Assembly (NCBI GenBank): GCA_035502855.1
Contig: DATJTX010000003.1
Coordinates: 1-64,000, forward strand
Origin: Candidatus Baltobacteraceae bacterium
GTDB taxonomy: Bacteria; Vulcanimicrobiota; Vulcanimicrobiia; Vulcanimicrobiales; Vulcanimicrobiaceae
DNA length: 64,000 nucleotides
Direction: 5' to 3'
Shown: piece by piece, positions 15,894-22,773 of the stretch
Layout: each line of letters opens with the position of its first letter
Numbering within the stretch: the first letter of the stretch is position 1
The notes under the pieces: generated by a model
What the model was told of the DNA's origin: nothing
Databases searched by the model: none
What the model saw: only the letters and a program-made list of their open reading frames with translations
Program-made: the position numbers and the translations under genes

Positions 15894-19338
<3,445 letters not shown>

Positions 19339-19349
<11 letters not shown>

Positions 19350-20631
19350 CGTCATCCCGTGCGCCGAACGGGCGCGAGCGGTGGGGATGCGCCGCGACGG
19401 CTGGGCACCCTCGCCCGAGCTGGTGAGCTCGGTGGCCGAAATCATCGTGGCCGTGCGGGTTCGCGGCGACGGCGCGCTGGTCGACTTCACCCGCCGCTAC
19501 GACGACGCGAACTACGATCTCTCGAAGCTGCGGGTGCCGATTCCGATGCATGACGGCGCGCGAGCGCTCGTGCCGCCGGAGATCGCCGAGGCGCTGCACT
19601 TGGCCAAAGAGCGCATCGGGCGCTTTCACGAACGGCAGCGCCCGGCCGATCTGGCCTACGTGGACGAGGACGGAACCCGCTACAGCCTGCGCTATCGCGC
19701 GCTGGACGCGGTGGCGGCGTACGTGCACGGGGGCCGCGTTGCCGCCGCATCGGCGGTGCTGATGAGTGCCGTGCCCGCCAAAATCGCCGGCGTTTCGCGG
19801 ACGATCGTGCTCTGTCCGCCGCGCCCGGGCGGCGTCGTGCACCCGGCGGTGCTCTACGCCTGCAGCCTCTGCGAGGTCGACGAGCTCTACGCGGTCGGCG
19901 GTGCGCACGCGATCGCTGCTGCGGCGTACGGCACCGATTCGATCGCGCGCGTCAACAAGATCGTGGGCTGGGGCGGCGCGATCGTGAGCGAAGCGAAGCG
20001 CCAGATCTACGGTGTGTGCGGCATCGACGGTCTTTCCGGACCGCCGGAGGTGCTCGTGGTTGCCGATGACGGCGCGAGCAGCGAGTACGTCGCGGGTGAG
20101 CTGCTCGCGCAAGCCGAGCGTGACATGTTTGCGCGCGTCGCGGTCCTTTCGGAATCTCGCCCGCTGCTCGAAGCGGTCGCGCAGCTGCTCGATACTTTCG
20201 ACGTGCGCACACTCCCGCACGGCGAGACGCTCGCGCACGTCATCGACGGCGCATGCTCCTTGCTGCACGCGCAAAACCGCGCGGAACTCTTCGATACGAT
20301 CGAAGCGATCGCGCCCGAGCGCCTCGCCTTACAAGTGCGTGATCCCGAACCGTATCTCGCCCGCGTGCGCCACGTCGGAACCGTGCTGGTTGGCGACATG
20401 ACGCCGCTCGCGTCGGGCGACTATCTCGCCGGAACCAATAACGTGTTGCCGCCCTCGGGCATGGCGCGCTTCGCGTCGGGCTTACGGCTGGACGACTTTT
20501 TGCGCAGCTTCAGCGTGGTGGAGAACTCGCGCGAGCGCATGCTCGCCGACGCCCTGCCGCTGGCGGCACTGTGCGAATTCGAAGATTTGCCGCATCACGC
20601 GCAAACGGCGAGGATGCGCAGCGGCGCATGA
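19339..20631 (+). CDS. HisD-like protein with altered catalytic residues
   Basis: A 430-residue protein with clear full-length similarity to histidinol dehydrogenase (EAKRQ, GIDGLSGPPEVLV, LLAQAE, GDYLAGTNNVLP). Compared with E. coli HisD from memory, several active-site residues are changed. Zn-ligand His262 is Arg (AQAERD), catalytic His327 is Arg (APERLAL), His367 is Asn (GTNNVL), and GPGN is GWGG. Gln259, Asp360, Glu326 and probably His419 are kept. It is therefore unlikely to oxidise histidinol in the normal way. It overlaps dnaE by 11 nt, with no other his gene nearby. Calling it hisD would be risky; the true role is unknown. Confidence 0.8.
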
Positions 20632-20730
20632 TCCTTCGAGGCTCACTGCGTTCGCACCTCAGGATGACGTATACGGAATGATCGTTCGAGGCTCACTGCG
20701 TTCGCACCTCACGATGACGTATACGGAATG
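20631..20730 (+). repeat. Two tandem 50-bp hairpin repeats with a compensatory base-pair swap
   Basis: Units 20631-20680 and 20681-20730 are identical except at positions 4 and 32 of the unit. In unit 1 these are C and G; in unit 2 they are G and C. Those two positions pair in the imperfect hairpin formed by ATCS and SGAT together with GAGG/CCTC, so pairing is preserved. The last three bases of unit 2 are the ATG of the following HAD gene. The sequence resembles dispersed REP-like elements (ttcgaggctc..tgcg). Confidence 0.85.
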
Positions 20731-21522
20731 AAGCTTGTTGCTTTCGACCTCGACGGGACGCTGGTTGGACGCGATCTCGTGATCTCGGCGCGGGTGCGCG
20801 CGGCCGTTGCACGGATGCTCGATGCGGGCATACGCGGGTGTATCGTCACCGGCCGGATGTACCGCGCCGCGGTCCCCTTTGCGCGCGAGCTCGGCTTCGA
20901 AACGCCGCTCATCTGCTATCAAGGTGCGGCAATCGTCGACCCGCTGAGCGACGAGGTGTTGCGCGATACGCCGCTGGAGCCGGACGTCGTGAGCGAAATC
21001 ATCGGCCTCGCCGGCGAAGCGAACGTGCACCTGCAGCTCTACCGCAACGATCTCTACTATTGCGAAGTGGACAACCGCTTTTCGCAGCTCTATGCTTCGC
21101 TCTCGGAAGTCCAGCCGGTCATCGTTCCGTCTTTGCGCGAGACGTTCGCGTTCAGTGCGGCGACCAAAGCGGTGGTGATCGACGATCCGCCACGCGCGCA
21201 AGAAATGGCCGCGCTTTTCTCTGAGCGGCTCGGATCGCAAGTCTACGTCACGCGCAGCTACCCCGAGTTCGTCGAAATCCTGGACCCGCGCGTCAATAAG
21301 GGCGAAGCGCTTCGCTTTGTAGCAGCCGGCGTCGGTGTCGACATGCGCGACGTCGCCGCGATCGGCGATTCGTGGAACGACGCACCGCTGCTCGAGGCGG
21401 CGGGCCTCGGGATCGCAATGGGCAGCGCGCCCAAGGAACTGCGCGCGGTGGCGCAAGGCGTTGTCGGTGACGTGGAAGCAGACGGCGTGGCCGAAGCGAT
21501 CGAGCGGTACATCGTGGCATGA
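20728..21522 (+). CDS. Cof-type HAD-IIB phosphatase
   Basis: A 264-residue HAD hydrolase of the Cof subfamily, which dephosphorylates sugar phosphates or other small phosphoesters. Motif I is DLDGTLV (residues 7-13), motif II VTGR (about 40), motif III the Lys in NKGEAL (about 191) and motif IV GDSWNDAPLL (about 212). A C2B cap lies between motifs II and III. The start codon is supplied by the end of the upstream 50-bp repeat. Its TGA overlaps the ATG of ftsQ (ATGA), so it is translationally coupled with cell-division gene ftsQ; whether that is meaningful is unknown. Confidence 0.88.
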   Translation: MKLVAFDLDGTLVGRDLVISARVRAAVARMLDAGIRGCIVTGRMYRAAVPFARELGFETPLICYQGAAIVDPLSDEVLRDTPLEPDVVSEIIGLAGEANVHLQLYRNDLYYCEVDNRFSQLYASLSEVQPVIVPSLRETFAFSAATKAVVIDDPPRAQEMAALFSERLGSQVYVTRSYPEFVEILDPRVNKGEALRFVAAGVGVDMRDVAAIGDSWNDAPLLEAAGLGIAMGSAPKELRAVAQGVVGDVEADGVAEAIERYIVA

Positions 21523-22283
21523 GGGGCCGGCCCGAGCGGGCGCGCCGTCGCCGCGGTTCGCCCACGCGCGTACTGCGCCCGTTCCGCCTCTTGCTCGCGG
21601 TCCTGGCGATATTGGCGGCCGTTGGACTCTACCTGCTTTCGACCTGGCCCGCGCTGTATCCGCATACGATCGACGTCGAGGGTAATCGCGTCGTGTCCAA
21701 GGACCAGATCGTCGAGCGCGCGCACATCAATCTGGCGCGGAACATGTGGCTGCAGAACACGCGTGCCATGGCTGCTCGGATCGAGGCGATCCCCTACATC
21801 GACACGGCGCGCATCGCGCGGCGGCCGCCGGACACGATCGCGATTCGGGTCACCGAACGGGTGCCCTTCGCCTTCGTCGACAGTAACGGCGCGCGCGTCA
21901 CCGTCGATCGCACGCTGCGCGTGCTGCAGAACGGTGCGCCGCCGGCGCTCGCCGGCACGCTTCCGGTGCTGCGGGTCGTACTGCCCGCGCTGCCCGCGCC
22001 GGGCGCGGGCATCTCGAGCGCGGACGTTCAGACGTTAGCCGCTTGCGCGGCGGATTTGGCGGCCGCAGACGTCGATGCGCGTTCCCTCGGCTTCGACCGA
22101 TTCGGTGACGTGACCGTGGTACTGCGCAACGGCGTGCAGGTAATGCTTGGCGATCGCGCGAGCGTAACGCAGAAAATCCCGCTCATCGAACCGATCCTGC
22201 AAGTAGTCGATCGCGGCCGGCGCAAGGTCGCCGCGATCGATCTGCGGGCGATCACCACCCCGGTGGTGATCTACGCGAAATAG
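21519..22283 (+). CDS. ftsQ: Cell division protein FtsQ
   Basis: A 254-residue bitopic membrane protein. It has a short basic cytoplasmic tail (RGRPERARRRRGSP), one transmembrane helix (about 23-43), then a POTRA domain (YPHTIDVEGNRVVSKDQIVERA) and the beta domain. FtsQ bridges early and late divisome proteins in the periplasm. It sits with dnaE, the HisD-like gene and a HAD gene rather than next to ftsA, which lies 3.2 kb downstream beyond three opposite-strand genes. The start is the ATG that overlaps the upstream stop by 4 nt. Confidence 0.85.
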   Translation: MRGRPERARRRRGSPTRVLRPFRLLLAVLAILAAVGLYLLSTWPALYPHTIDVEGNRVVSKDQIVERAHINLARNMWLQNTRAMAARIEAIPYIDTARIARRPPDTIAIRVTERVPFAFVDSNGARVTVDRTLRVLQNGAPPALAGTLPVLRVVLPALPAPGAGISSADVQTLAACAADLAAADVDARSLGFDRFGDVTVVLRNGVQVMLGDRASVTQKIPLIEPILQVVDRGRRKVAAIDLRAITTPVVIYAK

Positions 22284-22286
22284 GCT

Positions 22287-22312
22287 TTAAGGAAGCTCTG
22301 AAGCTTCCTTAA
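22287..22312. terminator. Bidirectional hairpin between ftsQ and a convergent gene
   Basis: A perfect 11-bp inverted repeat, ttaaggaagct (22287-22297) and agcttccttaa (22302-22312), with a 4-nt loop lies just after the ftsQ stop. Its right arm contains the stop codon of the convergent exported-protein gene. There is no U-tract on either side. It is probably a shared transcription end. Confidence 0.6.
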
Positions 22313-22662
22313 CGAAGGACCAGGCCGTTCGCGATGAACGTGCCGTTGCTCCAATAGCCGTAGACCGCGATCCGGTCGCCCCAGCGAGGCGTGGCGCCGG
22401 TCGGATGAATCACGGTGCCGGGTTTCAGATCGATCGTCAGAACGTTTCCGTTGCGACGCCGGACGTCGACGCGATACGGACGGAAGTGCACGACCGTACC
22501 CAACACGACGTGACGGCGATCGTATTGGAATCGATCCCATCCGGGCTGCCACGTAGTGTAAACCGGGCCGTAGCCTTGCGCGGACGCAGGCGGGGCGAAC
22601 GCCGTGGAGAGACCGAGGAACAGCGAGAGAGCCAGAAGCGCGGAGATGATTTTTGTATTCAT
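22309..22662 (-). CDS. Small exported protein, unknown (DUF5666-like beta barrel)
   Basis: A 117-residue Sec-exported protein: MNTKIISALLALSLFLGLSTAF then a probable AxA cleavage at ASAQ. The mature part is rich in beta-strand and aromatic residues (VLGTVVHFRPYRVDVRRR, then NGNVLTIDLKPGTVIHP, then RWGDRIAVYGYWSNGTF), a layout like small OB-fold exported domains. No catalytic motif is visible. The start is the ATG at 22662, chosen because gaggt lies 7 nt upstream and it begins the signal peptide; an ATG at 22674 is also in frame. Its role is unknown, and the next exported gene upstream on the same strand has a similar size. Confidence 0.75.
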   Translation of the reverse strand: MNTKIISALLALSLFLGLSTAFAPPASAQGYGPVYTTWQPGWDRFQYDRRHVVLGTVVHFRPYRVDVRRRNGNVLTIDLKPGTVIHPTGATPRWGDRIAVYGYWSNGTFIANGLVLR

Positions 22663-22773
22663 TGCATACCTCACGGTGAGTACTTGCCTTCGGAGGTAAC
22701 GGTGCCCAGCCCGAACCAGTTCGAACCAACGGCGTTTTCGGCTTCTTTCTCACGCGCTTCTCATGGAAAGCAG

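Follow-up and report, generated by a model that had tools for sequence, protein, structure and literature searches.

Does the gene at positions 19339-20631 (+) of the window (the whole 64,000-nucleotide stretch of DNA analysed here) encode an L-histidinol dehydrogenase (HisD, EC 1.1.1.23) and, if not, where did it come from and why is it kept? The first-pass annotation described a HisD homologue that retains the overall fold motifs, has lost catalytic and zinc-binding histidines, lies outside any his operon and is probably a repurposed paralogue.

Gene and genomic context

The ORF, its Pfam match and alignment identify the gene as a degenerate HisD homologue (pseudo-HisD). It starts with ATG at 19339, its stop codon ends at 20631, and it encodes 430 amino acids. 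The overlap with dnaE (15894-19349, +) seen in the first pass is 11 bases long, joins the 5' end of the gene to the 3' end of dnaE, and suggests co-transcription and translational coupling. Downstream are a HAD-family (Cof-type) phosphatase (20728-21522, +) and ftsQ (21519-22283, +; POTRA, FtsQ/DivIB C-terminal), the latter in a conserved block that extends from dnaE to ftsZ. dnaE and the phosphatase gene are the upstream and downstream syntenic anchors used below.

A 121-amino acid ORF (22309-22674, -) lies between ftsQ and a chemotaxis receptor gene. Its start looks signal-like by eye, and a Pfam search gave no match.

Fold and active site

The protein belongs to the HisD family over its full length. 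Pfam Histidinol_dh (PF00815) matches residues 27-427 (386 bits, E 2.5e-115), and the TIGR00069 equivalog gives 380 bits against a cut-off of 243.8, so the warning that the gene would be misannotated as histidinol dehydrogenase was justified. The AlphaFold2 model has an intact HisD fold (mean pLDDT 80, pTM 0.75), although its input alignment was shallow (11 sequences) and the model is no guide to side-chain detail. Stretches of at least three residues below 50 pLDDT are 18-21, 227-234 and 354-381; the last, with the lowest model confidence, is the former active-site loop (20398-20481, +). Against HisD structures, Foldseek/VIA-align gives Z of 34-38 (about 36 for E. coli HisD, 1kae/1k75), with most alignments spanning about 410 residues; Z is 32-36 against HpsN of C. 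pinatubonensis and about 14 against aldehyde dehydrogenases.

An alignment with E. coli HisD (NC_000913) and about 45 relatives bears out the substitutions that had been called by eye. In E. coli numbering, zinc ligand His262 is replaced by Arg (R261 of the window protein, 20119-20121), catalytic His327 by Arg (R328, 20320-20322), substrate-site His367 by Asn (N368, 20440-20442), and the GPGN loop of the NAD site (208-211) by GWGG (residues 210-213, 19966-19977; all on the + strand). Also replaced are substrate-site Ser237, by Pro (P236, 20044-20046, +), and Gln188, by His, a change that is not diagnostic given that some canonical copies (g6 and one g35; g numbers denote genera) have it too. 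Retained are Q259, E326 (E327 of the window protein), D360, E414 and H419. The catalytic pair Glu326-His327 thus keeps its Glu and has Arg for His, one of the four zinc ligands (Q259, H262, D360, H419) is Arg, and canonical Q188, GPGN, S237 and H367 read H, GWGG, P and N. The motif columns are gap-free and invariant in 23 canonical Eremiobacterota HisDs and six operonic HisDs (described below), which leaves no room for histidines that are shifted but present.

The losses extend well beyond these residues. In the degenerate group, 32 columns no longer show the state that at least 95% of canonical HisDs share. They include P132, G134, P209, S237, Q259, H262, E326, H327, D360, H367 and E414, so that catalytic, zinc, substrate and NAD-loop positions are all represented. 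The active-site losses far exceed chance. Conversely, 94 positions stay conserved in the canonical and degenerate groups alike. A sequencing error is not the cause, because the same gene is degenerate in the same place in 19 genomes of five genera. With the catalytic His, a zinc ligand and residues of the NAD loop and substrate site all lost, it is very unlikely, as judged from sequence, that the window protein oxidises L-histidinol. The g24 copies retain Q259, E326, D360 and H419, as the window protein does, and one g13 copy (G073) keeps all four zinc ligands. Some metal binding may therefore persist, or the protein may catalyse a different reaction.

HpsN, the (R)-DHPS-3-dehydrogenase (8v35, 8wwe), has a HisD-like fold and acts outside the histidine pathway; the first-pass annotation had proposed an alignment with homologues of this type. 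It has a Glu-His pair, a zinc site and NAD use, and its hallmark motif is GRY(A/S)H, in which the His recognises the sulfonate (PMC11382572). A single change lowers kcat/KM 580-fold when made at its E318 and 240-fold when made at its H319, and no activity is left in D352A; these residues are equivalent to E326, H327 and D360 of HisD (PMC11382572). In the window protein the three are E, R and D, and the stretch aligned to the motif reads GRVAA, with no His. An HpsN-type enzyme is ruled out by this stretch and by the lost catalytic His.

The canonical hisD of the genome

The host genome (3.33 Mb, 39 contigs, about 97% complete) encodes one other HisD, the separate true hisD that the first-pass annotation had proposed to look for. 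It is on contig C21, with GPGN, QAEH, PEHL and NHVLP intact and every catalytic residue present, and is the last gene of a complete, compact operon (hisG-hisC-hisB-hisH-hisF-hisA/IE-hisD). Histidine is evidently made via this second, unrelated operon, and the window protein is not the HisD of the pathway.

Identity of the window protein to operonic HisD is only about 35-40%, and about 35% between the two HisDs of this genome. In the HisD tree the operonic HisDs of g1 (the genus of the window genome), g24, g31, g34 and one g4 genome form one clade (100/100) that is placed far from the window protein. Among plasmid matches to operonic HisD, the best are proteobacterial HisDs (44-48% identical). 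By tree and synteny, it is the functional operonic copy that is of a foreign lineage, not the window gene.

Two oddities of the acquired operon were recorded. HisA is fused to HisIE in one 418-amino acid frame on C21 of the window genome (L085:3809-5065). In g31, the HisG match contains one internal TGA in all three genomes (G096:C33, G097:C26, G098:C139), which may be either an artefact of the frame near the end of the gene or a genuine peculiarity.

Origin of the degenerate gene

In canonical genera, the junctions that were read have the order dnaE-hisZ-hisG-hisD-HAD phosphatase, usually followed by ftsQ and, further on, ftsA and ftsZ (hisZ and hisG identities were checked by Pfam in g6). 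The window gene occupies the place of canonical hisD and is its orthologue by synteny, but it no longer adjoins hisZ and hisG, which are missing. The description of the gene as outside any his operon is accurate today; the locus was once a hisZ-hisG-hisD block from which hisZ and hisG have been removed. This shared syntenic place and the tree show the window gene to be the ancestral, vertically inherited hisD of the phylum rather than a duplicate. A within-genome duplication is ruled out, as the two HisDs are separate lineages and the window gene is syntenic with the canonical HisD of the phylum. Of the "repurposed paralogue", therefore, the paralogue does not stand.

All degenerate copies group together in the HisD tree (99/96). 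In contrast, a tree of neighbouring genes places canonical g6 beside the window group (98). After removal of the canonical-invariant columns neither grouping is rejected (p-AU 0.124 and 0.664). The degenerate state may thus have had one origin or two.

Distribution across the phylum

We surveyed 149 Eremiobacterota genomes (records of close relatives are labelled Candidatus Eremiobacterota). We detected the degenerate form in 19 genomes, which belong to five genera of related soil bacteria. It abuts dnaE wherever the junction is present, so the expectation that relatives might share the altered gene beside dnaE was borne out. The carriers are g1 (the window genome and G033), g24 (G087, G088), g31 (G096-G098), g13 (G072, G073) and ten of the 18 g4 genomes; the G033 gene has short N runs, and several of the g4 genes are truncated where a contig ends. 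In the five genera, hisZ and hisG are gone from the locus.

HisG, HisB and HisI are absent from 17 of the 18 g4 genomes, both g13 genomes and G087, and nine of those 17 g4 genomes still have the degenerate gene. No canonical HisD was found in nine g4 carriers, both g13 genomes and G087. Most of g4 and all g13 genomes are likely histidine auxotrophs judging by gene content, as several of the genomes lacking HisG, HisB and HisI are at least 93% complete, although incomplete assemblies add doubt. Since the degenerate protein exceeds the HisD equivalog cut-off, such apparent auxotrophs would be credited with a histidine enzyme. G005, G054, G080 and others have partial histidine gene sets (e.g., HisI without HisG or HisB), which may reflect assembly gaps or piecemeal loss.

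The whole hisZ-hisG-hisD block is gone, with dnaE abutting the HAD gene, in the genomes read from g5, g7, g9, g21, g23, g27, g32 and g34. At least five g4 genomes show the same junction, the gene having been cleanly removed. Thus, the degenerate gene is neither universal nor essential, and is dispensable. The phylum allows one gene to be compared in its canonical, degenerate and deleted states at a single conserved locus.

The anchor gene itself has an unusual form in two genera. The DnaE match is split at residue about 675-680 in L049 (G096:C11:19248-23924) and at G128:C6:829904-834544. Each is one open frame of about 1560 amino acids that contains an in-frame insertion of some 400 residues, which is probably a DnaE intein.

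Selection and shifted constraint

The degenerate gene is under strong purifying selection and is not decaying. Under codon models, omega is 0.070 in g4 (8 sequences), 0.116 in g31 and 0.101 in g1 with g24; it is 0.080 in the g13 set, which includes one canonical g6 row. Canonical HisD sets give 0.044-0.075 and operonic HisD gives 0.151. These values are approximate because synonymous sites are diverged, but neutrality is excluded even so. With omega set to 1, the fit of the degenerate sets worsens by 157 to 694 log units, a slightly generous figure as kappa was also fixed at 2. Full-length open frames persist in diverged degenerate genera, whose DnaE proteins differ by up to about a quarter. 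The repurposing proposed in the first pass gains support from this selection.

The position of the constraint has changed. Between-genus identity drops most at residues 367-381, 128-142, 254-268 and 319-333 and rises most at 273-287 (SRPLLEAVAQLLDTF), where it is 0.83 in degenerate versus 0.43 in canonical copies. This shift is beyond any of 2000 column shuffles. Comparison of conservation, together with the AlphaFold model, delimits a segment of residues 271-287 (SESRPLLEAVAQLLDTF; 20149-20199, +) with a predicted helix at 274-286, and constraint has moved from the active site to this one helix. Conservation of the C-terminal segment equals or exceeds that in canonical HisD. The helix motif is already present in the nearest canonical HisD (g6), so it was inherited and then frozen, not invented. 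A DNA-level or antisense cause was rejected: third positions of the conserved codons there are only marginally more similar than the average (0.53 against 0.46), and synonymous positions that are not unusually conserved indicate that the constraint acts on the protein.

Possible roles of the degenerate protein

The existence of a pseudoenzyme lineage within HisD is well supported by these sequence comparisons. The protein is an enzyme-family homologue in which conserved catalytic motifs are missing, and it is maintained by selection (omega 0.07-0.12, with omega = 1 rejected). It resembles pseudoenzymes, reviewed in PMC10211241, in that its fold is kept under selection after loss of catalytic residues. 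Unlike pseudoenzymes in general, degenerate HisD is kept also in genomes that have apparently lost the parent pathway. In the open PMC literature, we found no example of a HisD-family pseudoenzyme and no earlier description of the degenerate lineage. It may be an example of a biosynthetic enzyme that has outlived its own pathway.

We consider it probable that the protein is a folded, non-catalytic pseudoenzyme, an ancestral HisD that lost its active site, remains under selection, and has taken on a binding or structural role. The ancestral dnaE-hisZ-hisG-hisD-HAD-ftsQ block has lost hisZ and hisG, and the remaining HisD has lost catalytic base, zinc, substrate and NAD positions while fold and purifying selection stayed. 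Loss of the pathway may have freed HisD from catalysis, with the folded protein kept for a non-catalytic role, and some lineages would later have gained a complete his operon of another lineage. This order, in which the pathway is lost, the degenerate HisD is kept and the pathway is regained as one operon, is the most economical, but is not proven. The protein could serve as a binding, scaffold or sensor protein without catalysis and would probably be dimeric, like HisD. Its interaction surface may include helix 271-287 and the C-terminal domain, as constraint is now high there. The swap of constraint from pocket to helix offers a direct target for finding a partner protein. A more specific version, which we regard as rather doubtful, is that HisD gave rise to a new family of non-catalytic proteins in Eremiobacterota through two parallel recruitments (one in the window group, the other in g13 with g4) after loss of histidine synthesis. 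Such proteins would act via helix 271-287 and would partner some cell process whose genes lie in the dnaE-ftsQ-ftsA-ftsZ block.

Possible, though unlikely in our estimate, is a re-tooled enzyme, in which the HisD scaffold has a remodelled pocket and carries out another reaction, without zinc or with another cofactor. Strong purifying selection fits such an enzyme, as do the retention of E326, D360, Q259 and H419 in g1 and g24 and the states that are consistent within a genus (e.g., A-P-A-Y and G-E-Y-L-A-G in most g4 copies), and HpsN is a precedent for a change of substrate on this scaffold (PMC11382572). However, a new active site should be conserved, and the pocket is variable: its positions differ between genera, several vary inside g4 and g31, g31 has shortened the former active-site loop by deleting a part around 360-380, and conservation is lost at NAD-loop and substrate positions.

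Another proposal is that the gene is a relic on its way out, under relaxed selection after pathway loss and with too little time for stop codons to have appeared. The loss of active-site residues after hisZ and hisG, the clean losses in g4, and the slightly higher omega in g31 and in g1 with g24 all agree with decay. An omega near 0.1, the cost of over 150 log units for omega = 1 in every set, frames that are open across genera as diverged as their DnaE proteins indicate, and a segment more conserved than in active HisD make this reading quite improbable.

The protein might instead regulate or pair with operonic HisD by supplying or obstructing the cross-dimer residues E414 and H419. In the window group, few residues of the former site are better preserved than these two, and the well conserved C-terminal segment would suit such a contact. 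Identity to operonic HisD is low, however, and the twelve carriers in which no canonical HisD was found (nine g4, both g13 and G087) have no evident partner, so we give this proposal very little credence. The idea that the protein is an active histidinol dehydrogenase, its histidines simply displaced in the alignment, can be dismissed for practical purposes despite the high Pfam and TIGR00069 scores, given gap-free motifs in columns invariant in all canonical relatives and a complete second his operon.
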